Positions 3,257 to 61,424 of a DNA stretch of 64,000 nucleotides are shown one piece after another. The stretch is from positions 62,001 to 126,000 of IMG/VR virus record IMGVR_UViG_3300046758_000611; one strand, given 5' to 3'. Origin of the DNA: a virus. A program made the translations under genes and the position numbers. The notes under the pieces are model-generated. The model was given only the letters and a program-made list of their open reading frames with translations. It ran no database searches and was not told the DNA's origin. How positions within the stretch are numbered: position 1 is the first letter of the stretch; each line of letters begins with the position of its first letter.

Positions 3257-6200
3257 CTAAGAATCGTATTTTATTAAAAAATTAATTGGATAGTTTGGTA
3301 TTATCTTGACAGGCCTTCCTAATTTTGCCACCATTGCAAGTTCCGCACCGTGATATAATCCAATTGTAGTTGCATATGGTGCTAAATAACTTCCTTTTCT
3401 ATCTTTTGCAGTATTTTCACGAAAATCAAGAAAATCTTGTTTAATTTTTCTTCCATAATTCTTTCCTGTTTTTTCATCAAGATATTTTATTATTTCAAAA
3501 GAAGTAGAACGTTTCGCATTCGAACTTTCATCAATTAAGTTTTTTGTTAAGTCGTTTCCACGTCGTCCGACAAAATATCTTGCCAATAAATGTGCGTCAA
3601 TTGAACTTACCACACCATCACCGTCAATATCCAACCCATCTGATCCTAGTTCTTTTAAACGATCAAGATTATTAATTATTTTTTGATATTCACTTTCTTT
3701 TATATCAAACTTAGAAGTAGAAGAAAATAATGAATTAATTAACAACACATCTTCAGATTCTGTCATAATTATATCATCGTTTGGATTATTAGTATTCTGC
3801 CCCTCTTGAAGTTTTATTGCACCCGGGACATCACCTCCGGATGGAATTTTTAAAACCTGACCCACATATAAACTAAGATCACTTCTTAAATTATTTTCTT
3901 TTCTTAGAACATCTGTTGTAACCCCTGTCACGAGTGCAATGTGAACCATAGATTCAACTCGTTTTACAATGTGTCTTATTTTATTTTTAATGAGAACAAG
4001 CATTCCTATTTTAAATGTTCTGTCGGTTATTACATTTCCATACGAATCTTTAATGTCAGATACATCTACCTCATACTGTCTTGCTATTGTTTGTAAAGTT
4101 TCTCGTCCTACTATATACTCATCTTCACTTGAATCCCGTTGAGTTGGATCAACAAGTGATCCCATTATATATTTGTAAATATTTGCGACATCTCGTATAT
4201 CGAATAAAGCATCTTCGTTTATATCAAATGCTATCTTTTCATAAGTTAGTGCAGTTGGATTTGTGCTAACGTTAAATTCATAAGGTTCTACTCTACACAA
4301 GATTTCGTTTTCATAAATTGTATGAGAACCTTCAAACTCTAGTTCAAATCCACGTTCACCTGTACCGGAGAATAATTCGTCAAATTGTTCAAATACATTA
4401 GATATAACGGCAATTCCATTCTTATAAAATACATTTCCCACATAAGTCTTTTTGTTATCACGAATTGCAGTTGATTCATATGCAATAACCTTTCCACCAA
4501 TATTATAGTTTAAATAGTCAAGTTGGTTTATGGAAAAGTTACCAAAACTTGTGGCAACCGTTCCAACATCACTGAATAAGTAAATTTGATCTTCTTGCAT
4601 GGTATAAAGTCCAGAGACTGGAAATTTTCCTTCTACTGGACATCCAGAAAACATGAAATCTGAACTTAGTGCAACAGAAGTACCTGCTTGCTTTCTTATA
4701 CTATAACTCTGCTTATAACTTCTAATGGAGTTTCTTACCACAGGTTTATCTTCGTCAATTGAATAATAATAAACAGACCCCTCTACTGAATTTCTCTTTC
4801 CATAATAAACAAAATCAATTTCACTTATATCACTTGTAGAGTCTACAAGTGAACTTATATTATTTTGATCGATGCTTACAAAAAAATCTATAAAAACCAA
4901 ATCGTTTTCATATACCAACTGTGTTTGATCTCTGTAAATTCCACTATTTATAAATCCAAACTCACTATTATATCCACTTACCGAGGTGTCTATAAAATTA
5001 GCATATACTTCAAAATCTTTTAAATAGTCCAACTCTGGTTTCAAATTTGTAATGTTAATTCTAAGTTTACAATCAATAGGAGTTCCACCGAGTAATTCAT
5101 ATGTAAAATTTGTTTTAAGTATATTGTTAGAAATATAAAAATCTGTTTCTGATCCGTCAGAACCCTGTGTGTAATCAGATATACTTACGTTTTGCAAATC
5201 ACTATTTATTTCAATGCTACTCGTTTCATTACACGGAGAACCAACAATAAAGTTATTTCCGAGTATAGACACAGAATTTCCAAATCTAGTGGAAAATACA
5301 AGTTCATCAGTTTCCTCTCCATATATCTTATCTACAAAAATTAGACGTCCACTTTCTACCTTAAATACATACGCAGATCCTGCGGTCAGTGATGTTGAGT
5401 CGTTTCTTTGATTAAACTGACGGTCTGTTGGATCTCCTATAATACAGAAAGACTCATTTGCATCCATACATGACATAAAAGAACTATCTATATTAAAATT
5501 ATATTCGTATATTGTTTTAACCAGTGTATCCCTTGTTTGTACACCGTATGGGGAAACTCCTGTTGATATAGATATAACCGATTCGTTTCCATATAATAAA
5601 CCAAATTTTTCAAGACCAAAGTAAATTTTATTTACACCAGGTTCTAAATCAGAAAAGGGTATTTGAATACTATAAAATTTTCCACCAAAAACTTCAACAG
5701 AGTCTACGAATGTTCCACCGTGGGTAATCACCCGTTCAATATTTTTATTTAATGGTTGATTAACTCTATATATAAATCCATCTGATATATCAGAGTCATC
5801 TAAGACTAAATTATTAAGAGTAACCGAGACAATTTCATTTTCATAATCCACATCAAATGTAGTATCAAAATAAGAAGAAACTTCGGTTGGTTCTAAGTTA
5901 TACTCAAACATACCCAAATTGCTTATTGTTTGTTCATGTGTGTATGTAAATTCGTTATTTTCATTCATGGACCAAGTAAATACCGCACACATTTTATGTT
6001 CCCGTGAACCTATAAAAATATTTGTTTGTGTAAGTTTTACCACTTCACCAAATCTTTTAAATGATTTTAACTCATCATTTTTTATTGCTATTACACCGAC
6101 TAAATCATACGTTGGATCACCAATTGCAAAATCAGGTGTTCGTTCATATTCACCTTTTGTTGATATATATTTATCATCAAAAGTTACAACATCTATTGTT

Positions 6201-7675
6201 GAGTTCTCGACATAAGAAATTGGTGTATCTCTTTCCGAAATTACATTTTCTATTTTCCACCTAGTTACATTCTTATTTATTCTATTTACTTCATCTATAT
6301 CAGTTGGATAAGTTCCAGTGTGGGTTTCACTTTCCGTATCATAGTTATACTCATCGTAAACACTTGATACTCTAATCCAAGGGTGATTTTCGGTTCTAGA
6401 TGTCTTTTTAAAAACATAAACAACACCATTATCATTATCATGTGCAGGTGAACCTACAATCAAATAATCTTGATGCAAAGAGCACGAATATCCAAATTCA
6501 GAACCAGGTTCTCCTTCTAATATATTTATAAGACCCCAGTTGTCTATTCCACCTTTATTTTTATTGTAAATAAAGACATGACCATGTGCGTGTGTTTCAT
6601 TTGTTCCTCGTATGTGTGATTGAGGTGAACCCACAACGCATTCAGTTCGTGTTATGTCAACAGACTCACCAAACATATCATTTGTTGTATAGTTATCCTG
6701 AATGAGAAGATTGCCGAGTTGATCGGTCAATATATCATTTCCGTCACTGCTTATTTCCTGCGAAATTCCATTTTGAGTAAATGGACAATACAATTCCTTT
6801 AATAAATTAAACCCACCATCGTTCAGTCCTGATGTACTGTGTAGTAGTATTTCTGCTTTTCCAGTTTTAATATCAGTTGGGGCATCTTCAGACACAGGAC
6901 AACCCACTATTAAATATTTTTGATAAGCAGACACATTCTTACCAAAACTTAAATTATTAAAATCGAACTCATTTCCATCACCCACTTCTCTTGATATTTC
7001 ACGTGAATTTGAAGATATACCAACGGAATCACTTGAACTTAATGAAGAATCACTTATTATTAAATTAGTTGCACCATCATCTATTATCTTAACTGACCCA
7101 AGTTCTGAACTTTTATCTTTTATTGTAAACGAACTAGGAGAAACTTTATCTCCCATTTTATTTTTTGAAAAATCAAGAACCCACGCAGAGTCTCCGAGTT
7201 TTCTAATCTCTTGGTTTAGGTTTTCTCGTGAATTAATTGCATCAAGGTAATTCTCCTCCGTTCCATAAACACCGGTTTCTGATCCAAATACCATCAGTGG
7301 GTTTATTGTACCAAACTCTTCTTCTTGAGTTCCATAGTTGTTGTAAAACAGATGTCGTATTGAACTATAAATAGTTCTACAATATGTACCATCCTTGTTT
7401 ACAGGTTCTGTGTTTTCATCGTAATGGGAATGCCCCCTTGGATAAAATGTCCCATCGGTTTTTTTAGCAAATCTAATTGTTACCGCACTGTCCGATTCAG
7501 ATTGCTCAAGTGATAATTTATTGTTGATATCCGAAAATAAAGGTATTTTTGTTCCACCGTCTACTTCTTGTTCAAGAATTAGTTCGTTTGTGGATTCCAA
7601 CGAAGAATACTTCCACTTTCGGTTCGCACGAAATTTTCTTACATTCTTATCAGAAAGTTTTATATTCTTTATCAT
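3257..7675 (-). CDS. Large virion protein with FG-GAP-like, dockerin-like and LysM repeats
   Basis: A 1472-residue late protein. Residues about 250-1010 hold repeated FG-GAP-type beta-propeller blades, each with a signature such as 'YLIVGSPAHDNDNG', 'NFIVGSPCNE' or 'FCIIGDPTD'. A dockerin-like calcium loop follows at about 1152 (DINEDALFDIRD). Two LysM-type modules lie at about 1187-1230 and 1235-1280 (second ending 'YVGQVLKIP'), then a second dockerin-like loop at about 1349 (DIDGDGVVSSID). The last 45 residues share a motif (TTIGLY...AKL..PV) with the next gene upstream. Propeller, glycan-binding and calcium modules suggest a baseplate-peripheral or fibre protein acting on the host surface. 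The ATG at 7675 follows TATATTT with no Shine-Dalgarno sequence. Confidence 0.7.
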   Translation of the reverse strand: MIKNIKLSDKNVRKFRANRKWKYSSLESTNELILEQEVDGGTKIPLFSDINNKLSLEQSESDSAVTIRFAKKTDGTFYPRGHSHYDENTEPVNKDGTYCRTIYSSIRHLFYNNYGTQEEEFGTINPLMVFGSETGVYGTEENYLDAINSRENLNQEIRKLGDSAWVLDFSKNKMGDKVSPSSFTIKDKSSELGSVKIIDDGATNLIISDSSLSSSDSVGISSNSREISREVGDGNEFDFNNLSFGKNVSAYQKYLIVGCPVSEDAPTDIKTGKAEILLHSTSGLNDGGFNLLKELYCPFTQNGISQEISSDGNDILTDQLGNLLIQDNYTTNDMFGESVDITRTECVVGSPQSHIRGTNETHAHGHVFIYNKNKGGIDNWGLINILEGEPGSEFGYSCSLHQDYLIVGSPAHDNDNGVVYVFKKTSRTENHPWIRVSSVYDEYNYDTESETHTGTYPTDIDEVNRINKNVTRWKIENVISERDTPISYVENSTIDVVTFDDKYISTKGEYERTPDFAIGDPTYDLVGVIAIKNDELKSFKRFGEVVKLTQTNIFIGSREHKMCAVFTWSMNENNEFTYTHEQTISNLGMFEYNLEPTEVSSYFDTTFDVDYENEIVSVTLNNLVLDDSDISDGFIYRVNQPLNKNIERVITHGGTFVDSVEVFGGKFYSIQIPFSDLEPGVNKIYFGLEKFGLLYGNESVISISTGVSPYGVQTRDTLVKTIYEYNFNIDSSFMSCMDANESFCIIGDPTDRQFNQRNDSTSLTAGSAYVFKVESGRLIFVDKIYGEETDELVFSTRFGNSVSILGNNFIVGSPCNETSSIEINSDLQNVSISDYTQGSDGSETDFYISNNILKTNFTYELLGGTPIDCKLRINITNLKPELDYLKDFEVYANFIDTSVSGYNSEFGFINSGIYRDQTQLVYENDLVFIDFFVSIDQNNISSLVDSTSDISEIDFVYYGKRNSVEGSVYYYSIDEDKPVVRNSIRSYKQSYSIRKQAGTSVALSSDFMFSGCPVEGKFPVSGLYTMQEDQIYLFSDVGTVATSFGNFSINQLDYLNYNIGGKVIAYESTAIRDNKKTYVGNVFYKNGIAVISNVFEQFDELFSGTGERGFELEFEGSHTIYENEILCRVEPYEFNVSTNPTALTYEKIAFDINEDALFDIRDVANIYKYIMGSLVDPTQRDSSEDEYIVGRETLQTIARQYEVDVSDIKDSYGNVITDRTFKIGMLVLIKNKIRHIVKRVESMVHIALVTGVTTDVLRKENNLRSDLSLYVGQVLKIPSGGDVPGAIKLQEGQNTNNPNDDIIMTESEDVLLINSLFSSTSKFDIKESEYQKIINNLDRLKELGSDGLDIDGDGVVSSIDAHLLARYFVGRRGNDLTKNLIDESSNAKRSTSFEIIKYLDEKTGKNYGRKIKQDFLDFRENTAKDRKGSYLAPYATTIGLYHGAELAMVAKLGRPVKIIPNYPINFLIKYDS

Positions 7676-7705: not shown

Positions 7706-9136
7706 TTAAAAATCTAACTTTACCTTTATAAGAGTTTCAGAGTCAAAACTTTTCAGTACAGGTGTACTTAATTTTGCAATAGCAACCAATTCATTGTTTT
7801 CCGTATACAATCCTATTGTTGTAATATACGTACGGGGATCAGATATAAAATCTTCATGTCGCACTCTTCCATACCAATAGTCCTTTGAAATTCCAGTTTC
7901 TATATTTTTTTGTTTTGCCTCGTCATTTTGATAAACATATGTCGGATTGTTGCTATAATTAAAGTCGGTATTTTTTACACGAATAAAATAATGCTTAGAC
8001 GGAATATTTTCTGTACTTCTACACTTTAGGTTTTCTCCATCTCGCAACGCATAAAATAATTTTAGAAAATTTTGATGGTTTCGTTCTGTTCCATATCTAA
8101 AATTACTATCAGAACCTTCTACATTTTCAATTCCACCGCACCAAGCAAAAAATGTACCAGCATTTTTATCATTATCTTGTGTTGAATATTCAGGTATTGC
8201 ATTTAGTTGTGATCTGAAAAAGTTTCCAGAATCGGATGCTATTGCGTATGGATTAAGTATTACGATTCCTAAGTCAGGATAAAATAATCCAAAACCCTCT
8301 CCGTCTCCAGTTAACCCACCTCCATCGGAATAATAGTCTTCGGTTTGTGGTGCTATGTCTGTGAGAGATCCTTTTATTATATTAAAAACCTTTCCTATTC
8401 GTGATCTACCTGCTTCAATTTGTGTATCAGATTGGTATCTACTATCGTCTCTAAATGTCTGCTCATACACAAACTCTTTTAGTTCATTTGTAGATGGATC
8501 AACATATTGATGTTTTAATTTTAAAGTAAACTCAAGATTTCCTTCATCCAATTTTTCTTTAATTCTACTTGAAGCAAAATTTATAATATAAATCGACTCT
8601 CGGTCCGCAACTTCGTCTCCTATTTTGGGAAATGTAAAAAAGGAATCACCAGGTCCCAAAAGTATATTTTTGTACTGATTATATATTGCCTTTGTAACAG
8701 ATGCTGATTTTTCTCCAACCCTTGAACCATAACCATTTTTATCACCATAAGAAACTGTAAATTGAACTTCCGAATTTGCTTCTGTTGTTGGTAAATTATA
8801 CACATTCGCATAATAGTCTCCACCTTTAACACTTGTCCAGTTATCTGTATGATATAAAGCAGTTTCTGACACATTAATGTTTTCAGAATAATTTTCTGTG
8901 TATGTTGGTGCGGTATTTGATGCAATGTAACTTGGTTTTTCAATATCTAGTTGTCCATCACCGTCATTATCTGCATTTGTTACCACATATGATAGTGGTG
9001 TGTCTAATTCCCCTCCGTCCGAATTGTCTATAAACATATCAGTCAATTGAAATTCATCATTAGAGAAAGCACCGGATGAAATCTTGAGAGTTCTTCCAGT
9101 AACTTTATCACTATCTTCTAGTTGTTTGTAAATCAT
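7706..9136 (-). CDS. Virion structural protein with shared TTIGLY C-terminal motif
   Basis: A 476-residue protein with no known catalytic motif. The N-terminal half contains an acidic Asp/Asn/Gly-rich stretch (DNDGDGQLDIEKPSY, about 80-95) that resembles a single calcium-binding loop. The C-terminus (about 430-476) carries 'TYITTIGLYTENNELVAIAK' followed by a lysine-rich strand, matching the end of the 1472-residue protein encoded next downstream. It starts one base after the stop of the gene upstream (9138-9803), and the 1472-residue protein follows after about 30 bases, so all three are probably cotranscribed. A tail or baseplate role is inferred from the shared motif and the gp6/gp25/gp5 block further upstream. 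Confidence 0.6.
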   Translation of the reverse strand: MIYKQLEDSDKVTGRTLKISSGAFSNDEFQLTDMFIDNSDGGELDTPLSYVVTNADNDGDGQLDIEKPSYIASNTAPTYTENYSENINVSETALYHTDNWTSVKGGDYYANVYNLPTTEANSEVQFTVSYGDKNGYGSRVGEKSASVTKAIYNQYKNILLGPGDSFFTFPKIGDEVADRESIYIINFASSRIKEKLDEGNLEFTLKLKHQYVDPSTNELKEFVYEQTFRDDSRYQSDTQIEAGRSRIGKVFNIIKGSLTDIAPQTEDYYSDGGGLTGDGEGFGLFYPDLGIVILNPYAIASDSGNFFRSQLNAIPEYSTQDNDKNAGTFFAWCGGIENVEGSDSNFRYGTERNHQNFLKLFYALRDGENLKCRSTENIPSKHYFIRVKNTDFNYSNNPTYVYQNDEAKQKNIETGISKDYWYGRVRHEDFISDPRTYITTIGLYTENNELVAIAKLSTPVLKSFDSETLIKVKLDF

Positions 9137-9137
9137 A

Positions 9138-9803
9138 TTAGTAATTTATTGCGTTTATTAGTTCACTCTCTGATTGGGATTCTGTGAATACTCGTACAGG
9201 GATTGTAATTGATCCACCGGTTTCATTTCCAATTATAGTTAGTGTTGTTACTACACTTTTTGTTAAAGAAGCATTTGGACGAAATGTAAATTGCAACCCA
9301 ACAGATGTAGTTGATTGTTCACTTGAGGTGTCACCTATAAACAATGAAGTTGTTTGTGATACAGAAGCATCTACACCAGACCCCTCCAGTGTACCAGCAT
9401 CACTATTTGACAACACGGCCGTATAACCAAGTGTTGTGTTGTATACAGGATCGGTTGTTGGAGTAATTGAAACAAATCCTTGGTAATCGGTATCCAATGT
9501 GATACTTTGTTGACCCAATTTTATTTTTGGGACCATTTGTGTTCCAGCTGGAAGTGTTACTAATTTATATTTCAATGCTTGTGTTTCATCAGTAAGTGGT
9601 TCAAAAACAGGCATTGTCCGTAAAGCTGCGTCATAATATTGCGAACCTTCTGGATGATTCGTATCGTAAAGTGTATAATCTATTTCGTCATCCGCAAGAG
9701 CAAAACTTGTAATGTTAAGTCCGTTTTCCGATGCTAATAGTTCTCTTCCTCGTTTTGTGAGGACTGCTTCAACCGTAATTGTTTCGTTATTTAAGTATCC
9801 CAT
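9138..9803 (-). CDS. Virion structural protein of the MGYLNNETITVEAVLTKRG type
   Basis: A 221-residue protein. The frame is open for 19 more codons upstream, but those residues are only Ile, Tyr and Lys from AT-rich DNA, while the ATG at 9803 starts a compact domain (MGYLNNETITVEAVLTKRGR). That N-terminus resembles structural proteins of marine T4-like phages as I recall them. Residues 100-220 are rich in Thr, Ser and Val with beta-strand character, such as 'TSLFIGDTSS' and 'GGSITIPVRV'. It ends one base before the 476-residue protein starts. A palindromic promoter-like element lies about 25 bases upstream. No enzyme motif is visible; a tail role is inferred from context. Confidence 0.6.
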   Translation of the reverse strand: MGYLNNETITVEAVLTKRGRELLASENGLNITSFALADDEIDYTLYDTNHPEGSQYYDAALRTMPVFEPLTDETQALKYKLVTLPAGTQMVPKIKLGQQSITLDTDYQGFVSITPTTDPVYNTTLGYTAVLSNSDAGTLEGSGVDASVSQTTSLFIGDTSSEQSTTSVGLQFTFRPNASLTKSVVTTLTIIGNETGGSITIPVRVFTESQSESELINAINY

Positions 9804-9849: not shown

Positions 9850-10803
9850 TTATGTTGCAATAATTCTTCCTTTTATTTTTCTAAATTTTCCGTTGGCAAC
9901 TTTCCTAATTCCATCGTTACTTCCACCAGTTACCACAAATTTCTGTTCTTCTATTTTTTCAGAATTAAGCAATGCCATTGCTTGTTTTTCCGTAAAACCC
10001 ATATTCATTTTATCAATTATATTGTTTGCATAGTTATCAAATGCTTCAACATATTTGTCTGATTGCATATAATAATAATCAAGTCCTCCGTTTATTTTTA
10101 GAAAATCTTGTTTTGTGATTGGTTGTCTTTCTGATTCATCTATATATGAAGTTTGTTGTGTTGTTCTTCCTTCGTGAAAAAAATAAGAAACTTCGGATGT
10201 TGTGTGTTCATTCAGTGAAACATTTCCATAATCAAGTATATCGGAATAAAACATAACATTATCTATCATACCACAAAATCTACCAATTTCAATATTATTA
10301 AAAGTAACAAATGGTCGTGTGAATCCAGTATCATGTGATCCTACATACACATTATCCACAAACAGCCTGGTAATTCCCGAAGGATAAAAATTTACTACAA
10401 CACAATGCCATGTCTCTTTTGTGAGTTTAAAAAAGAAACTTGAATCTTCACCGGATGCAGGTGTATTCCAATTTATACCAAGTTCAAGTTCTTCTTCGTT
10501 TGCGTTTACTACAACTCCTGTTCTATTATCAGTTTCAGGTGACCTATTTAACATAATACCCGAAGATGGAGCACTTTCTTGATCAAGATAAACCCAAAAC
10601 GCCATACAGGCAGAATTTGTATACACACTACTTTGTTGAACTACTTTGATATATTCGTGTGTATTTGTTTCATCTTCACTTACGTTATTTTTTAATTTAA
10701 CTATATTTCTATACTCACGATCAGGACCACCCGTAAGTAAGTCACCTCCATATAATACCCCATAGTTTGAGGTGTTGACTGAGTTTATTATTTTAACTGC
10801 CAT
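9850..10803 (-). CDS. Virion protein with concanavalin A-like (LamG) fold
   Basis: A 317-residue protein. Residues about 60-210 read as a LamG/concanavalin A-like jelly roll: '[10 protein letters not shown]', then '[20 protein letters not shown]' and '[20 protein letters not shown]' are the usual strands of that fold. Such domains bind glycans, which suits a tail adhesin. Residues about 230-317 form a separate polar helical tail, including '[20 protein letters not shown]'. The start overlaps the end of the 3511-residue protein by 11 bases, so translation is coupled to it. The glycan target is unknown. Confidence 0.65.
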
Positions 10804-13800
10804 TTTGAGTAACCTTTCTTAGTATATTAGATCCTATTGTGGTTTCAAGTTCTCCTTCGTAACAATCTCCATTACTTCGTATAAATCTAATTTTTAGAGG
10901 ATTTACAAAATTTCTTGATACTTCGATGGTCATACCACCTTGACTAAAATCACTAACATTAAACGGACATACATAGGAACGGGGAATCGTTGGTTCGGTT
11001 GAAGTATCATCAAAGCATATTGTTCCATCTTCTGATGATGAAACTTTAATACCCAAGTTGCCAAAATCACCAACCAAGTTTTCTATTTCTAATATAACAC
11101 CCAACTGACCACAACAATCAATTGGAGTTTGTGTTGGAGTTGGAGTTTGTGTTGGAGTTGGAGTTGGGGAAGGTGTGATAGTTTGTGTGGGTGTGGGTGT
11201 GGGGGTGAGTGTTGGGGTCTGCGTGAGTGTTGGGGTCTGCGTGGGTGTTAGGGTCTGCGTAGGGGATGGTGTGGGTGTTGGGGTTCGTTCCAATCGTGTA
11301 AATGGATAATTAACATTAAATTCGGGAGACACAGGTAAAATAGTTTCATAACAGACATTATCGTTTGTCACAAATCGTATCAATGTTTCGTTTACTAATT
11401 TTGAAGGTAAAGAAAGTGTCAACCCACCATTACTAAAATCTTCTTCAACAAATGGACAACTATAAATTATTGTAGTTGGGTTGTTCGTACTTCGTTCTAA
11501 ATTGTTGTAACATAGTGTACCTGCAATAGATGTAGTTACAACTATTGATTCAGATTCAATTGTATTTTGGCCCTCATTTAAGTTTTTTGTTTTTAATAAA
11601 CCTTGACAACACTCATATGGTGTGGGTGTCTGTGTTGGGGTTTGGGTTGGTGTGGGTGTCTGCGTTGGTGTCTGCGTTTGAGTAGGAGTTGGTGTTGGTG
11701 TTGGTGTTGATGTTTGCGTTGGTGTCTGAGTAGGAGTTGGTGTTGGAGTTTCTGCCAAAGATGTGGGTGTTTCTAAAACAAATGGTGTGGATGTGTAGGT
11801 TGGTGTTTCTGTGGGAGTTGGTGTTGGTGTTAAGTCAACATTGTCAGTTTCTTCAAACTTAAAATAAAATTCAGGTTGTTTATCAAGAGATAACATCGAT
11901 GGATATTGATCTTGTCTAAGGGTATTTGTGGTAACAACATTTTCAGTTGGTTTGTCTTCGATAAACCAAAATGAATCGTGCGATGCGTTTGTACTTATAG
12001 ACTTTGTTCTAACGACACATGGAGTGTAATTCAAATTTCCGTTAGAATCAACGGTAGTAGTTGAATTGTTAGTTGTTGACTTACTGAATATATATCTTTT
12101 CTTCCTGCTTCTAATTTTAGGTACACCACTTTCTATGAAATCACCACGATTTCCAATATCCACAAGGTTGTATCCTGAAAATTCAGTTGTTATATCGTGT
12201 AATATATTATTTCGTATAATGTGTTGATTTAGATCATAATCCAAATCAAAATTAGAAATAGAAAAATTTATATCAGTTGGTAAATTATATCTTTTAGAAT
12301 TTGTATAATTTTGAAATCGTCTTATATTAAAATTAAATTTAACATTATACTCTATTTCTTTTATATAATCTGGAACATGAACTCTTGAATTATTTGTTGA
12401 AATGACATCAGATGCTTCCCATGACTTCTGTGTATAGTTTATGTTTCTCCAATTGGCACTTTTGCTTTTATTATTAATTGTATTATTTACTGATATTGTA
12501 AGTGGTGGAACAAAAAAGTCACTTCTGTTAAAATTATCATTAAAATTAAATTCATATTTTAAAAAATCACCCAGTTCCGACGAGAATATATGTGGTGATG
12601 ATTTCATACTAATTGGACAAATGTTTGTTTTTATATTTTCATATGAATTTTTTGTGTAACCAAAATAAAAAATAGAAGTTTTGTGGATCGTGTTTGACCC
12701 GGAGTCTTTAAATTGTGGTAATAGAAAATCTTCTCCCAAAAATAAATTTTCATCAAATGACCAAAATATATCAACAGATTTTAAGTCAACATTTCTAATT
12801 AAATTTTTGATTTGAATTTCATTTTCCTCGTTTGTTTGTAAGTTTGTTAAAATTGTTTCCGTAAAATATTCACTCGTTTGATTTACAAGTGGGTGGGGTC
12901 TAAAGCTATCAAGTTCATATCCCCTCGGTTCTCCGTATATATTTTTTTTGATTTTATATGTGTAAATAGCAATCGGTAAAAGTGGTCGTTTATATGAAGT
13001 GTATGGCAATTTTTGTGTATTTGTTGTTTGTACTGTGTAAATTGGTTGTCTTTCTCCGACACACCCATCACATACATTATCAACGATATATCCAAATTTT
13101 AATTCATCGTCTTCAAATTTACGCAAACTTGCGTTTTTCCAAGCAAATGCGTTTTCTTCGTTTTCATCAAAGTTATTAATCTCTGAATTTGTATTTGAAT
13201 ACCCGACTCGTAAGTTAAGTAGTCTTTTCTCACAATTGGTAGCAGAATTTTCAAACATAACATAATAAGAACCCTCGTCCCTCGGATCATCGTTTACCAA
13301 TTTCCATGAAAGATTTAAATTATCATAAAAAATATACCAACCATTTACATTTTTATACAATGGATATTCATTTAGGAAATCACTGGTTTTCATGTAAAAT
13401 CCATCAACACCATCATACCTACCTCGTATATTTCTATTTGAAATAGTTATATATGGTAATATTTTATCTTCATTCAATTTACGATTAGTTAATATGCAAA
13501 ATGTTTTTGTTTTATCATCATGATATTCTCCATATGCAGGTAAAATTAAATTCAAAGAACGTACAGATACTGTCCATGCCAAGTTTTTGTTACTTATCGT
13601 TTGAAATGTTTTGAATAATCTTTTATTGGGAATCAAAACAAAAGAATCACCAGTTGCCACAAAATTTGTTTTTGATTCAATATTAATATCTTCGTCTGAT
13701 TTATATAAATCCTCAACGGCAATAACATCTGACTCATAAACCGACTCGTGGATTGGTGCATGAACTATTGTACCAACTTGAAAGTCAAAATTATTGTTGC

Positions 13801-16800
13801 TTTCATTTAAAGATGAATCAAACGTTGTAGTAACATTGCTCGAATTATTACGTATCCAACTTTTGTTTCTAGTCTTGTCGGCATTACTTATTACCCATTG
13901 CCACCCCTCTTTATATATAATCCACTCTCCGATGGGTTTTTGTCTATAATAAATACCAGACTGAGAACTTATTTTTTCATATTTTCCATTTACCCCTTCT
14001 CTGCTTTCTCGGAAACCAGATACCAAAACATCACCCTCCGAGTTAAAAACATTCGTATTTTTTGGAAAATAAAAATCACCCCCACCACCGTTTAGTGTGC
14101 TAAATTTAATAGGCCTACTTGATGCCTTTTCTTCATCAAATATGTAAACTAAATTTTCGTTTTTAAAATATTCTGATTCAGACTGGCCACTTCCGAGTGG
14201 GTCTATATTAGATAAAATCCACCGATCAAACAACACACTATAAAAAACATACCACCAAGTATTTTTATTATTTGTGAAAACTTCTTTTCCATTGAATGTT
14301 TCATACCCACGTATATATGTTCCATTTGCAGAATACATTACTCCGTGAAATGATGAAATTTTAAAACCAGAATATTCTCTTTCATTTAGTATCAAGAAAA
14401 AATTCTCAATTCCTCTCTGTGTGTATGTGTAACTGTCGTTGGAGAGTTCGTTTATTTCTATTTTATAGTTAGTGTACTCATCATTCATGTTCAACATAAG
14501 TTTACTGTCTAATACATCTTCTGAATATATAACTATTTTTTCACTTATCTGACTTTCGTTTTTACTAAACTCTCGTATGATACCCTGATCAAAAAACAAA
14601 GAATGCTTTGCTCTAAGAGCAAAATATACAAATGAATCATTTTTAGTTGCGGTTGATTTTAATATCTCGTTAAAATCACTATAGTCTGTTGGTTCGAAAA
14701 CTATTTTGTCAGACTCCGACTCTATGAGAGATTGTTCCCATTTACTATCACAGTTTGAAAGAAAATTTTCACTCTTTCCATCAATAGTTTCTGTTTTAAA
14801 TTCATCAAGATAGCAAACAAAATAAAATTTATTATCATACGAAACTCCCGCATCTGTGTATGTGTTTATTGTAAACTCAAAGTAACAAGTTCTAAGTCCA
14901 TCTTCGTTTAATAAGACATTGCTTTTTGCTTCCTCAAGTGCCGTTTCATTTAAAACAAGATTTTCATTTTCAGAAACCTCATTAGTTAAGTTATCTAGCA
15001 AATCTTGCTCACCTCCTCCGTATGAAATTGGTAAATTTGTTGGTAGTTTATAGTCTCCAATTGAATTTTTAGAGTTAGGAACAAACCCACTTCCATACTC
15101 TACCTTCTCAGGTGAATCACTTTTTAAAAAGGGTGTTGTAAATTTATATATACGATTTTCAGATAATGCATTTAAAAATTTATTACTATATTTTATGTTG
15201 TGTCCAGTTAGTGTTCCTTTTTTATTTAAAATAAGAGTTATATCGAGTAAATCAACATCTGGTATTTGTGTGCTAATTTCTTCAATTTGACCAATCTTCC
15301 AAATAAAAGAAACTTCATTTTTGATTTGAATTTGTTTATACTCGTTTAGTAATTGTTGTGAACAAGCTAGTAACTTTAAACTTCTAATATTATTTGTTTT
15401 AAGTTTGATTGTAGTCGCAATGTCATAATCTAACATAAAAGGTTTTTTAATGACATCGTTTACCATCACATCATACGAAGATGCATATAACCCAGAAGAA
15501 GTTCGTATTCCATTTTCATAAAAAATACTATAATCAGATTTTCGTATCCTAGCATCTATTTGTAGTTTTTCAGTTAGTTGCACGGTGTGTTTATTCTCAC
15601 TTGGAAGTGGAATAAAATCGTAATAAGAAAAATTTTTAAATCTACCGGTTGAGTTTGCATTGCTCTGTATTACTGGTACTAAATTAGAAGCACGAAATCC
15701 TAAGTTAAAATCAACTATATCATTTATACTTAACTCACCACTCGAATTTACCCCATCCGATGCTATATACGGAGAATTACAATCATAATAAGAAAATTCA
15801 TTAAAAACTTTACCAAGAACAACTAAATTAGATACATATCCGGTAAATAATCTTCCTATAAATTTACCAGACTGAACATTAATATTTTCAAACGAACCGT
15901 CAAATATTTTTTTATTATTTTCTGTATACTCGTAGAATTTACCATTATCATTTAAATCGATGTACCTACCATAAAACTCTCCATATATTCTGCAATTCAA
16001 TATCCCTCTAATATAACCCCCACCAACACGATTAATTTCAGAAGAGTGAGTATTTATTTGAAAAATTCTGTCATTTTTTATGTTTGTTGCTACGGTTGCT
16101 CCTCCATCCGAGTTTACATAGAATGTACTTATTGACGATGATACCTCCATTGATTGTAGTGGTGTTTTTACACAACCACCATCAAACTCACTACACATAT
16201 TAGAAAATAATACAGGTAAATTATCTACATTATTATTTGCAGTATCATTCTTTTTTTCTTTAATCCAATAATCCGCATCATCAAATATAGAAGGTTCTTG
16301 CAAGAACTCAGGATTTTTATTTATCAACATCCAACAATTATATGATTTACTAAAAAATATAAACCAAGTATTTGATTTGTTTTTGAATAATGGTTTGTTA
16401 TTTATATTTTTTTCAGAAGTGTATTCACCATTTGCTGAATAAAAACCAATGTACTGATCCCCTATTTTGGTATTTTTTATAAAACCTGAAATTGTTAATA
16501 CAATTGAATTATATACAAATGAATTTGTTCCTTTATTTTTATTTGAATTAAATAAATGCAAATTTTTGTTTATTTTTTCTACTTTATATTCATTTCCATC
16601 CGATGAATATATACCATTGTTTATAAATGTTCCAAAAACTCGTTCATCAAAGTCATTGTCAGGTATTATATTTCCTGTATAATTGTCGTTGTATGCATTT
16701 CCTTTGATTCTATCAATTGACATACTACTATCGATACTTAAAATATTTTTATCTCCTGGTTTAAATTTTACTTTAGAATCTTCGTTTGCGAAATTTGCAA

Positions 16801-19800
16801 TATTTTTTCTATCGTAACTTCTTGATCTTAAATTAATTTGTTTTAATTTCTCTATACTTTTGTTCGTTTTTGTTCCGTCTATAATAGTAGTTTCAATTAC
16901 ATTTTCAACTTTGGGTGATTTTATTTTATGTCGTTCTAGAATACTTGGTTCTATCAAAAGACCAGAAATTAGTCTTGTTCTTGCTGGCACCAACTTTTCT
17001 ATATTCTCAAAAAACGAAGCATCTACATAGGTTTTTAATATATTTAGAAATGCTTGCCAATCTATCTTACCAAACCCTTCTTTATAGAACACTTTTCTAA
17101 ATTGTTCAAATTTTTTGTATTCTTTATTGTATAAATCAAGTGGGTCTCCGATATATTCACCTATATCGTAGTTTCCAAAAAACCTTATTATTTCTCTGTT
17201 TAATATATCAGTTGGACTTATAGTGCATAAAACCGTATTGTTATCAATGGTTACTCTGTCAAGTTGCTTTCTTGTTACACTTTTTCTTGGATTTAAGACT
17301 CCTGTTCTTTTTTGTTTTTCATGCCTGATTTTTGCATTACTGAATGCCTGCGATCCGAAACTTGGAAGTCTTGCATACTGAACCGCTGCACTTCCTTTAA
17401 AGTCAAACGGATATTCTGTGCTTGTAAAGTTATATGCTTTTATATACTCCACCGAACTCGCAACCGCAGAGTTTTCTAGTTTTCCGTATCCACCGTCCGT
17501 GGATTGGGTGCTTATATCATGTGGTAAATCAAAGTTTAACTTTACAAACAAATTATCAACAACCAATTTAGGGTCATCCAAACTATATCCTTGGTCGTAA
17601 AATATATGGTCATTAAAATTATCAGAAGTAATTTCTTTTTTATATAATCTTAATTTATCAAGTTCTCCACAAAACAAAGAAGAAGAATAATTACCAACAT
17701 ATAAATTATTATCATCAGTTTCGTGTAAATCACTACAAAAGTTCTGATATTCATAGTCTGTTATTTTTATACTAGAAATTTCGTTCAAAGTAACTTTTCC
17801 GTCAATTTGCTTTCTAATGTATGTTTCTATAAAATATGATGATAGTTTGGTATCATCTTTTACTATTTGCAAAAGAACATGAATGTATTCATCTGTGAAA
17901 AGATATACAGGATTTTTTTGTTCGGTTGGTGTATATATTTTATCATTTAATACAAACGAAGAACCTATATTTTTATATTGAAAATAGAATCTTCCGTATT
18001 CATAATTTTTATTTGAATCAAATTCAATGCAAAATTTCCATGTATTTGTTTCTAATAGTATTATGTCACTTACACTACCAGAATTTAGTTTTTCTGCTTC
18101 TATGATGTTTTTTACTTGTAATTCATTTAATTTAAAGCACAACTCGATGGATTTTATTTGATGTGAGTTCCATTCTATCTCTAGATATTTTGACGAGTCT
18201 AGTCCACCAATGTCATTATTAAACACTAAAGAAAAACTATAAGAATCAAATTCAAACCAATTATCACCACTTGATGTTTCGGTTGAAAGTCCACCATATT
18301 CTTTTATACTTAAGAAGTGATTAGGAAGTCCATAGCACTTCATTAATGCACCGATTGACTTTTCAGTACCTATGTGTTTTATTATATAAGGTAGGTTATT
18401 TAGTATACGTCTCCATATTGTCGATCTTCTTGTAGAAATCAACGATGACGTACTATTAACCTCTGCACTTGCATCATCACCAGAGTCATCTTCACCCGTA
18501 AACGATAATCCTAATGATGACAACATATATTGTACTAATTTGTTTGGAATTCCTCTATCTGGATGGTTAGATGCGTTTCTAACTTTTCCCATGTTGTCTA
18601 TATAAGACACAAGTGTGTCAAACTGCACTCCAACTGAATTTAGAAAAAGTAAAAAGTCATTGTTGTCTTCATTTCGTGTGAGGAATTCAGGTATGCTATT
18701 TACAAGGGAAGCATCATTTTTATCATCGTAAGTTTTTGCATCTTTTGCTTGAAATAAATACCACTGATAAGTCCCTGTTGATACAAAATCCTCGATTTTC
18801 TCAGGAAGAATCTCTGGTAGTCTTTTCAAAACACCTTCGTGATTTTGAATGCTTTCGTATCTAACCGAAACAACTTCATCTTTAAATGAGTTACTACAAT
18901 TAGAACTTAGTTTAATTTCGTTACTTATATAACTCAGTGTTGAAATTTTAAACCAATCTGCGTTAGCAGTTGTTCTTTCTTTATTCGAAACTACCCAACG
19001 TTTGTGTGTTTCGTTAGTTTCTTCCTCAAATACTACTTCGTAGAAAATGTAAAAGTTGGAAATTCTATGCTTGAATTCACGTTGATTGTTAAAAAACCCA
19101 ATTTGTTCATATGTACCGTTTGCCCAACCAAGAGAACCAAATGTATCTTGGTTTTTGGCTATACCACTTACCTCTAAATTATTTGTCCGTGGCCAGGTCG
19201 TTGATACTTCTGATATATATGTGGTATATGCAATTGATGTTTGCTCTTTATTTTCATCCTCGTATGTCCATAGCAGATTTGAAATAATTGGAGTGCTACT
19301 ATCTGTAAATGCTTCATCATTTATTGAAGATAAACGCACAACTATTTTATTTGCTGTGGAAAATGAAAAGTAAGGATTTGGTGTTTCACTTTTAACAGAA
19401 CTTGACTTGTCATGTTTTTTTCGAAACCACCTTCCTATTTGATTGCTTATTTCAGATGCAAGTGCATGGGGTTGCATTCCTTCGTATATACTAATATCTC
19501 CGTAGTTTGGTGTCTTTTTGGATGTAAACTTTATTGTAATAAAGTCATTATCAGGTAGATTTATTTCAAATCCATATATCTGCGGAATAGACTGATTTCT
19601 ATTAATCGTTGTCTGTTCACTTGGTTGGTTTGTTATACTATCTAAATTATTAAATTCTATGATCGCAGTTGCATCATCACTTTTATTTTCAAAAAACAAA
19701 TATCTTTCGTATCCGTCTAGTTTTGCTAAAATTTCACTTTTTGTTTTATTTTCTTTTGAAATTTCAAGTGTTCTAAGAAGACGTATCGAGTTTTCAGAAA

Positions 19801-21328
19801 TTTTTGCTTCAATGTTACCTATACTTGTTTCGTATTGTAAATTGTATATTTCTTTTTCTATATTTTTTATCTTGTGAACTATAACTGAGAAGTTTGTCAT
19901 TTTGAACAAAAACGAGTCAATTCTAGATTTTGCAGAAGAGTATTTAACAAAATTATTAAAATCTGAATAATCTACATTCAAATTTAAGTCAGATGATGAT
20001 GATGTATTGAAGTATTTTGCTACATCATCGGTTACATTTTCAATTAAATCTTCTTGGTTATACTCTTTCGTTCCACGTGATGTACTTACTAAAGTTAAAT
20101 CTGGTTGTCTCAGTTTTTTTGTTGGGACAATTGATGTTTTATTCAGTATTGTTGTAAAATACAGATCATCTGAATAATATAATCCACTTATATACATTCT
20201 TGTATTTATTTCAATGTCTTGGTCAAGTGGTTTGGCAAGTTTAATTACAATTGGAGTATATGCAGAATCCGATACGACCTCGGTTGACTTTGCGTATTTT
20301 ACAATAGGAATTCCATTACCAAATCCAAGATTAATTATGTTATTTAAAAATCTATCAAATCTTCTTGCGTAAACTTCATTTACATAACCCACATCATAAG
20401 AATACATTATCAAATCACGATAAAACAAAACGGAAGTATCGGATGCTGGCAATAAACTTAGTGCCGGGTGTTTTGAGATTATATAGTTTACTGCAAGTGA
20501 ATATTCTTCGTAGAAATCTGACTCAGCAAACACATTGTTGTATTTTGTTAAGATTAAGTTGCGATATAGTTTTTTACACTTATCATAAAACTTATTTATA
20601 TCAATTAGTAAATCATTTTTACTTAAGTTTAATGATTTTGTAAGTTCGTTAAATTTTGTTTCAAAGTCCGCTATCTGCAACTCAAGTTCATTAAATATAT
20701 CTGAAGACGAGTAGTTTATTGTTTTTATAAACTTTTCGGTTTCATAAAAAATATGAGACACTACAATTCTTCTGTTCGCAAAGTTTTCAAATTCAAACCC
20801 CAGTGCAACATCCTCTGACTTATTTGATGCACGGGATGCTTCTGGTATTATCTTAATCTCGTTTCTACTTGGAGATATTTCTTTAATTATTAGAAAAGAA
20901 CTTGACTCAGACGAACCAACTATATCATTACGCATAGATATACCAACTTTATATGCACTTGGAGCAGTTGCTCCAAGTTTTTTCAGTTGGTCAGTAAATG
21001 ACAATATTAATTTTCCATCTTTTACGAAATATCGTGAACCAATTACATCTATACTCCCTTGTACATTATCATCGTTATAATCAAAAAAATTAAAGTTTAC
21101 TTTTTTAAAGTCATCATCACCAGGAATAGTTGACCAATACAATAAATCATTAGAAGTAGAGTATACCGAAAACTCAACTATATCCTTCGAGGATTTTCCA
21201 AAAATAAGTTTTGTTGGTTTTTCGTCTAATACAATATCAAGTAAACTTTCGTCTACTACATACCCACGTTGAAACGGTTCGTTTTCTTTAATATTGGGTT
21301 CTTTAATATGTTGTATTAACGAATTCAT
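10793..21328 (-). CDS. Giant 3511-residue tail protein with repeated adhesin-like domains
   Basis: The largest gene here. Residues about 885-1010 resemble the P2 gpI-like tail proteins of other phages ('[20 protein letters not shown]', '[17 protein letters not shown]'). Residues about 1015-1290 look like a concanavalin A-type fold ('[16 protein letters not shown]'). A module of about 45-50 residues with the pattern G-x-Y...W-x-[IV]-[FY]-Y...W-x-[LIV]-x-N recurs near 733, 1628, 2331, 2444 and 2634. Near the C-terminus, two Thr-Pro/Gln-rich linkers (about 3165-3236 and 3347-3401) each precede a similar Cys-rich domain. It is probably a baseplate-attached fibre or tip protein, with receptor binding the likely role. 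TATAAATA only 5 bases before the ATG is probably chance. Confidence 0.7.
11124..11286 (-). repeat. Second Thr-Pro/Gln linker-coding tandem repeat
   Basis: Imperfect 6-base units coding Thr-Pro, Thr-Gln and Ser-Pro in the giant tail gene. The repeat lies between the two Cys-rich C-terminal domains and ends just before the last one (CCGQLG). Length changes in multiples of six would keep the frame. Confidence 0.7.
11620..11832 (-). repeat. First Thr-Pro/Gln linker-coding tandem repeat
   Basis: Imperfect 6-base units coding Thr-Pro and Thr-Gln, interrupted by a short insert ([11 protein letters not shown]), just before the first Cys-rich C-terminal domain (ECCQGLL). It forms an extended, probably flexible spacer in the 3511-residue tail protein. 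Confidence 0.7.
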
Positions 21329-59867: not shown

Positions 59868-61424
59868 TTATTGTATTCTTTCGGGATAATCTGTAAATAC
59901 ACCATTTACACCCAACTCACGCAAATATCTAATAGCACGAAGTTCATTCACGGTATATACATATATTTTCATGTTATTTTCATTACAATACTCAACGATG
60001 GGTGGTGTAATATCTTCTATATACAAATTTACAGAATATATATTTTTTTCAAAGTAGTCTTTCTTAAAATTCTTTATGTCTCTCAGTATGACATTATCTT
60101 CGTGAAATAATTGGGACACATTAATATCGGAATCACTTCGTCTTATCAAATTGACGGTTGCACAACTAAACGAACTTAATACAATATCAACATTCCTCCA
60201 TTGTTTCTTTTTTTGATAATCTCTAACAATAGCAACAATATTAGTTGCAATGCTACTATCCTTAACTTCAATATTAACACCACACCTTCCATCTATGCAA
60301 TCCAATGCTTGTTGCAAAGTGGGAATTCTTTCACAATTAGCATAAATTAATTTATCAAATTCATGTGATTCCAAATCACTCATTTTTTTATCTACACCAA
60401 ACATTCTATTTGCATTGTAATCGTGAAATACACACATTTTCCTATCAATATATTGAACATCAAATTCAATCATATCACAATTATATTCAATTGCTTTTTC
60501 AAACGCAGAAAGTGTATTTTCAGTGCAAGTGCCACTTGCCCCACGATGAGCAATATTAACAAACTTATACTCTTCTATTTCCGAAAAAAATTGTTTTATT
60601 TTACAAAACACACTACATTCTAACCCCTTGTCATAAATTGTAAGATGTGTATTTAATTTTGTTGTATATAATTTTTTGTATGTTGATGCAATCTTTTTGA
60701 AAGCACGAACACCACTACTATAAAAGACAGTAGGATCATTATATTCTTGTATTTGAAACACAGGACACAGAATTCTATCTAATATAGTTTTAGAAACATT
60801 AGACATTTTACGAAGTTCATTTGTTGCGGACAAATTAATTAGTGGTTGATTTAGTTCAGGCATCTCACTATGATTCGTAATACACTCAAGCATTATTTTT
60901 TGTAGATTAAATTTCTTACAAATTTTATTGTAAATCATGACACCTGGTAAAAGTTTATTGAATACATTTTTAACCCCAAACGGGCAATTAATTAAAACCA
61001 TACCCGCAAATCTTACATCTTTTAAAGTAGACACATAAGCACCCACACAACCACCAAGTGAAAATCCTATAAAGTAAACTTTATCACACTCATTAGAAAC
61101 TTTTTCATATTTACTTTTTACGTCATCTACCCAATCATTCCAAGTCACTTTTGTAATATTATCAGAATCGTATCCGTGACCACGCAATTCAACAAGATGA
61201 GTATCCCATCCGAAATTTTCAAAAACAAAATCACTAAGAGGGACCATTTGTTCGTGCTTTGATAAAAAACCATGACACAAAATAACCCCAACTTTTTGAG
61301 TTGAGGTTTTTTTGACCTTCTTTGATGAAATGCTTTTTTGCATTTCATTTTCCATGCACATATTGTTGTGTTTGCAACTTATTGGATATTTACATTCTTT
61401 TTTTGTGCATTTTTGTGATTCCAT
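59868..61424 (-). CDS. Alpha/beta-hydrolase fused to glycerophosphodiester phosphodiesterase
   Basis: A 518-residue fusion. Residues 6-23 have four Cys (positions 6, 11, 17, 23) that could bind metal. Residues about 44-280 form an alpha/beta-hydrolase of the lysophospholipase type: oxyanion HG at 51-52, nucleophile Ser122 in 'GFSLGG', acid candidate Asp230; where the catalytic His is expected ('DKGLEC', about 265-270) there is none. Residues 288-518 are a GDPD domain with all key residues: 'AHRGASGTCTENT' (His293, Glu302), 'MIEFDV' (Glu320, Asp322), 'FHD' (His334) and 'NIEVKD'. The pair could deacylate a phospholipid and split the remaining glycerophosphodiester. Confidence 0.75.
   Translation of the reverse strand: MESQKCTKKECKYPISCKHNNMCMENEMQKSISSKKVKKTSTQKVGVILCHGFLSKHEQMVPLSDFVFENFGWDTHLVELRGHGYDSDNITKVTWNDWVDDVKSKYEKVSNECDKVYFIGFSLGGCVGAYVSTLKDVRFAGMVLINCPFGVKNVFNKLLPGVMIYNKICKKFNLQKIMLECITNHSEMPELNQPLINLSATNELRKMSNVSKTILDRILCPVFQIQEYNDPTVFYSSGVRAFKKIASTYKKLYTTKLNTHLTIYDKGLECSVFCKIKQFFSEIEEYKFVNIAHRGASGTCTENTLSAFEKAIEYNCDMIEFDVQYIDRKMCVFHDYNANRMFGVDKKMSDLESHEFDKLIYANCERIPTLQQALDCIDGRCGVNIEVKDSSIATNIVAIVRDYQKKKQWRNVDIVLSSFSCATVNLIRRSDSDINVSQLFHEDNVILRDIKNFKKDYFEKNIYSVNLYIEDITPPIVEYCNENNMKIYVYTVNELRAIRYLRELGVNGVFTDYPERIQ

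Follow-up and report, generated by a model that had tools for sequence, protein, structure and literature searches.

The 64,000-nucleotide stretch of viral DNA analysed here (the window; bases 62001-126000 of the 170,221-base IMG/VR virus record IMGVR_UViG_3300046758_000611) carries on its minus strand, at positions 3257-7675, an open reading frame (ORF) of 1472 amino acids with an ATG start, which we call gene C. We propose, at a probability of about 0.6, that its product is an accessory protein of the tail or baseplate region with two permissive loops, the first (site 1) holding a propeller and the second (site 2) a calcium-stabilized clamp of two F-hands with a LysM arm. The block at site 2 interrupts a conserved virion-type domain, and the two F-hand loops within it flank the pair of LysM modules, an arrangement that was overlooked in an earlier reading of this DNA (the original prediction).

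Modules nested in a conserved phage protein

A Pfam search of the 1472-residue protein detected FG-GAP_2 (E 2.7e-19, three stretches), LysM (E 5.5e-10, two stretches; 39.5 bits against a cut-off of 20.9) and Dockerin_1 (E 5.7e-5; 23.7 bits, just above the cut-off of 22.9, at F-hand 2 only). The three module types claimed by the original prediction were all recovered above the Pfam cut-offs, and the outcome that it had named as refuting, profile searches without significant dockerin or LysM matches, did not occur. From the N- to the C-terminus, the protein consists of an N-terminal core (N-core), seven FG-GAP blades, the first half of a conserved C-terminal domain, F-hand 1, two LysM modules, a linker, F-hand 2, a helical stretch and the second half of the conserved domain. 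Several large domains within one ORF might suggest that chance read-through or an assembly chimera had fused unrelated sequences. We found, however, the same architecture in three other contigs (100, 83 and 72% identity), showing that the window protein is no assembly artefact; this recurrence, a related architecture in contig locus L095 and the low ratio of nonsynonymous to synonymous substitution rates (dN/dS) over the insert refute such a fusion, to which we assign practically no probability.

The first half of the conserved C-terminal domain (residues 1041-1141, positions 4253..4555, minus strand as for all parts of gene C) ends in EFNVSTNPT and is 92-98% identical among close relatives, and the second half (residues 1432-1472, 3260..3382) starts with YATTIGLY; both were delimited by alignments. 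When residues 1044-1141 were joined to residues 1432-1472, six phage records, namely Microcystis phage Mel-JY01, four Flavobacterium phage immuto records and the uncultured 484-kb phage LR756508, matched the joined sequence in one contiguous piece each, with E values of 2e-14 to 4e-8. Since the halves align unbroken to other phage proteins once the block is left out, the window protein is an enlarged member of a widespread gene family. Across these phages and most of the IMG/VR contigs examined, 17-42 residues separate the motifs FN..NP[ST] and ITT[IV]GLY, as compared with 292 in the window. This domain is very common, with a lower bound of 598 candidates (of 600 stretches) in IMG/VR, and the minimal forms of gene C that were scanned gave no Pfam or PHROG match. 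The N-core (residues 1-212, 7040..7675) is conserved across the gene C family; the alignment revealed motifs common to Mel-JY01, immuto, LR756508 and the minimal orthologues L123, L126 and L147. By its N-core, its split C-terminal domain and its place downstream of genes A and B, the window protein belongs to this family.

Minimal orthologues pass straight from a '..DDG..NL' strand to 'GN[VI]FY' in the N-terminal alignment, and this junction is site 1. In the window it is filled by residues 213-1040 (4556..7039), for which Pfam FG-GAP_2, a blade profile and the model of a relative, L099, indicated seven FG-GAP blades with extra beta segments between them. The profile placed the blades at residues 243, 333, 392, 541, 739, 797 and 998, one of them weakly (E 0.02). 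The AlphaFold model of L099 (1055 aa, 25 sequences; predicted local distance difference test score, pLDDT, 70.6) matched integrin alpha propellers (E 1.4e-12, template modelling score 0.59 by target) as well as viral FG-GAP proteins, one of them a cyanophage S-TIM5 protein with a virion-protein annotation. The window propeller, as the original prediction had it, is thus suggested by its blade motifs and by the model of this relative, and it differs from the integrin alpha propeller in its extra beta segments and in being an insert of a phage protein. FG-GAP was found at site 1 in 9/9 F-hand-bearing members scanned with Pfam, and the minimal proteins L123 and L147 gave no Pfam match there. Mel-JY01-type orthologues (WWT39517.1) share the gene position, the N-core and the C-terminal domain with the window protein but carry LamG in place of the propeller at site 1 and have no more than a short loop at site 2. 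A literature search for FG-GAP together with baseplate found nothing. In a subclade (L122, L134, L139, L142 and L152) gene C is split, with the N-core in its own upstream ORF, and MBG-like and RCC1-like repeats were seen by eye in a separate upstream ORF of L142 and L152. Very long forms of gene C with repeated SWKNFRENVSFSYP-type modules occur in L096 and L097 (3152 aa in L097).

At site 2, the members form a series from a loop of about 20-40 aa, through an extension of 56-78 aa and an F-hand pair of 164-195 aa (L094, L097, L098, L099, L102, L104, L112, L122, L133 and others), to F-hands with LysM of 292-323 aa (the window, L002, L003 and L095). Some loop lengths were obtained with regular expressions, and alignment served to check only those of the F-hand clade and of a selection of others; the contig loci were picked by similarity, so that the frequencies of module types are no survey estimates. 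LysM module 1 (residues 1187-1229, 3989..4117) corresponds to the second Pfam LysM stretch, with a partial match in a further scan and a weak PDB profile match to the LysM pair of 4uz2. LysM module 2 (residues 1235-1278, 3842..3973) matched Pfam LysM over its full length (43/43) and LytE in the PDB (3.9e-7). These modules resemble LysM (PF01476) in this full-length match above the curated cut-off, but here they stand in a tail-region protein, between two F-hands and without a catalytic domain. The combination of modules had been called unusual, and the order F-hand 1-LysM-LysM-F-hand 2 indeed is; it is, however, no isolated fusion, and closes a series of nested insertions that can be traced.

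Dockerin-type F-hands and the search for a cohesin

F-hand 1 (residues 1151-1172, DINEDALFDIRDVANIYKYIMG, 4160..4225) was located by alignment, by a profile match at the orthologous position in relatives and by an AlphaFold helix, and F-hand 2 (residues 1349-1370, DIDGDGVVSSIDAHLLARYFVG, 3566..3631) by Pfam Dockerin_1 and by PDB dockerin profile matches; the helical tail of the insert follows (residues 1371-1431, 3383..3565, from alignments). Both calcium loops, DINEDALFDIRD (residues 1151-1162) and DIDGDGVVSSID (residues 1349-1360), carry the dockerin ligand pattern at positions 1, 3, 5, 9 and 12, and these ligands are conserved, suggesting that the F-hands may bind calcium. In the window, F-hand 1 scores weakly by itself, and its identity rests on the alignment and the ligand pattern. 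The F-hand 2 profile recognized the F-hand 1 position in L099, L104, L102, L142 and L098 with E values of 4e-8 to 9e-6, as compared with 4.6e-5 for the best of 750 shuffles, and had no convincing match at this position in the window's close relatives. When a profile of the LysM-less inserts was searched against the PDB, cellulosomal dockerins ranked first (best 1e-8), the best-listed dockerin stretches all falling on F-hand 2, and calmodulins reached only about 0.005-0.01. A generic EF-hand reading was rejected because calmodulins ranked so far below dockerins.

As F-hand 2 is nearer to cellulosomal dockerins than to EF-hands, these matches raise the question of whether the pair works as a genuine dockerin, with a cohesin partner located either in a second phage protein or at the surface of the host. 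Canonical dockerins have their F-hands roughly 30-36 residues apart. The spacing between the first aspartates of the two loops is 198 residues in the window, 72-100 in the LysM-less relatives and 228 in L095, and the F-hands do not lie side by side in the compact domain of about 60-70 residues of a type I dockerin (PF00404). The pair resembles that domain in its two F-hands with the calcium-ligand pattern and a following helix, and differs from it in this spacing, in extra helices, in an F-hand 1 that is degenerate in some members and in the lack of a cohesin partner in our searches. No cohesin reached the Pfam cut-off in the window's own record or in nine relatives, several of which are fragments. 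A cohesin-like match below the threshold came from the L104 record, in its gene B (14 bits; 11.4 bits, E 0.38 in a second scan). It occurred in gene B of L104 and L105 (9634-10734), beside the gene of the dockerin-like protein, but in none of the other eight gene B proteins scanned; the gene B profile had no PDB match, and we judged the similarity, sub-threshold and present in 2/10 gene B proteins, to be probably due to chance. A true dockerin is therefore highly doubtful. With F-hands 72-228 residues apart and no cohesin in ten records, cellulosome-like docking, which the original prediction had considered, is not supported, and its two dockerin-like loops hold as ligand patterns but form no canonical dockerin; we accordingly name the element a dockerin-type F-hand pair. 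A further idea is that calcium operates the pair as a docking or gating element peculiar to this clade: the F-hands would pair near the cell and either catch a cohesin-like fold in a tail neighbour such as gene B or swing the LysM arm into place, making host contact calcium-gated; we regard this as a long shot. The literature searched appears to contain essentially no description of a phage tail protein with dockerin-type F-hands.

Order of insertion and selection

In a tree of genes A and B, which is independent of gene C, the F-hand insert needs one change: the F-hand rows form a single 20-row branch (Shimodaira-Hasegawa-like approximate likelihood ratio test support, 100), and the branch next to it holds the rows with the extension. 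The F-hand insert has a single origin on this tree. In a careful 23-row tree the four LysM rows make up one side of a branch (support 73/75, not starred), a quicker 67-row tree did not resolve L094 and L095, and L094, L097 and L098, which have F-hands and no LysM, lie around the LysM rows. Most simply, LysM would have been added once and later, between existing F-hands, an order that these trees weakly support; LysM may instead have been gained twice, or gained once and then lost in L094.

Between the window and L002, dN/dS was 0.06 for the F-hand 1 segment, 0.12 for LysM 1, 0.05 for LysM 2 and 0.07 for F-hand 2; the propeller had a value of 0.135 and the conserved domain had values of 0.009-0.03. 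The insert segments gave 0.04-0.15 wherever a value was computable; synonymous sites are near saturation, so that these values are rough, though all are well below 1. Purifying selection acts on the insert. Alternatively, the site 2 insert could be structural, its F-hands and LysM stabilizing contacts between tail subunits, with the host bound only by the propeller or by other proteins. In accordance with this, most of the insert is more conserved between the window and L003 than the propeller is (LysM 2 90% and F-hand 2 89%, against 65%). However, LysM 1 varies as much as the propeller (64%), and LysM is missing in the close relatives L094, L097 and L098, which have the same cassette, indicating that it is dispensable for the core. 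We therefore consider a structural insert possible but unlikely.

Genomic setting and proposed role

Gene C is preceded by gene B (7706..9136, minus), which ends in an uninterrupted copy of the C-terminal domain (FNYSNNPT-37 aa-YITTIGLY), and by gene A (9138..9803, minus), which encodes a conserved MGYLNN protein and is the first of the A-B-C cassette. The three genes are syntenic in Mel-JY01, immuto and LR756508. The cassette lies downstream of baseplate genes; in the window a baseplate wedge gene is upstream, and in immuto the cassette has a baseplate wedge gene on one side and tail fiber/spike genes on the other. The synteny with baseplate genes and the domain in common with a neighbouring protein suggest that the gene C product is part of the virion. 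In L009, a 484-kb phage, the A-B-C region contains interrupting ORFs, transposase-like (zinc-finger) and endonuclease-like. Beside the cassette in the window, a separate protein with a Laminin_G_3 domain is encoded at 9850-10803 (minus). A 3511-aa ORF (10793-21328, minus), which matched no Pfam family, contains long stretches of Thr-Pro (TPTPTQTPT) close to its C-terminus. Elsewhere in the window we noted an aspartyl/asparaginyl beta-hydroxylase domain in a phage protein (53930-55216, plus) and an alpha/beta hydrolase fused to a glycerophosphodiester phosphodiesterase (59868-61424, minus), whose best PHROGs family is named tail fiber.

According to the proposal that gene C encodes an accessory tail protein, the N- and C-terminal cores would form a part anchored in the virion, of which two loops would serve as permissive sites for ligand-binding modules. 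At site 1, the seven-bladed propeller would probably touch the cell surface. At site 2, the F-hands would pair upon binding calcium and clamp the base of the insert, joining both ends of the LysM arm, and the two LysM modules so presented may bind a glycan containing N-acetylglucosamine, such as peptidoglycan. The hosts of the relatives are Flavobacterium and Microcystis; in Gram-negative hosts, peptidoglycan is exposed only after passage of the outer membrane. A virion protein with calcium-dependent assembly or binding to cell-wall glycan had been predicted for this gene; the calcium ligands of its F-hands are conserved, and a glycan-binding tail protein appears to be its most likely role, whereas cohesin docking was not supported.

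Several observations weigh against this proposal. The AlphaFold model of window residues 1038-1472 (29 sequences) had low confidence (pLDDT 64, predicted template modelling score 0.45) and does not show how the F-hands pack. A Foldseek search of the C-terminus model against the PDB gave nothing below 0.26, the best matches, none significant, being LysM modules. The F-hand 1 of L122, L133 and L134 is degenerate. The core profile had no sequence-profile match in the PDB, and searches for virion proteomics or a solved structure of a relative, and for a host link via gene A relatives in GTDB genomes, found none. Moreover, a LysM module can have a purely structural part in a tail, Mu gp43 being an example (PMC11915804).

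In evolved Dit proteins, tail-protein loops hold inserted carbohydrate-binding modules (PMC7291167), which help the phage to adsorb to exopolysaccharide-bearing hosts (PMC10688798); by this analogy, the inserts of gene C would probably give a conserved tail component added host-binding functions. Evolved Dit, known from siphophages of Gram-positive bacteria, differs in scaffold protein, modules and phage type, whereas gene C has two insertion sites and its LysM is nested in an F-hand pair; as the core profile has no PDB match, the likeness is kept as an analogy. Taken together, these results bring to light a widespread, apparently unnamed phage family in which two defined loops accept binding modules. 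The suggested order of insertion, from a loop to an F-hand pair and then to LysM inside that pair, allows direct tests of the modular way in which tail adhesion devices evolve in uncultured myovirus-like phages, and the nested inserts may show how such phages build host-binding devices step by step.
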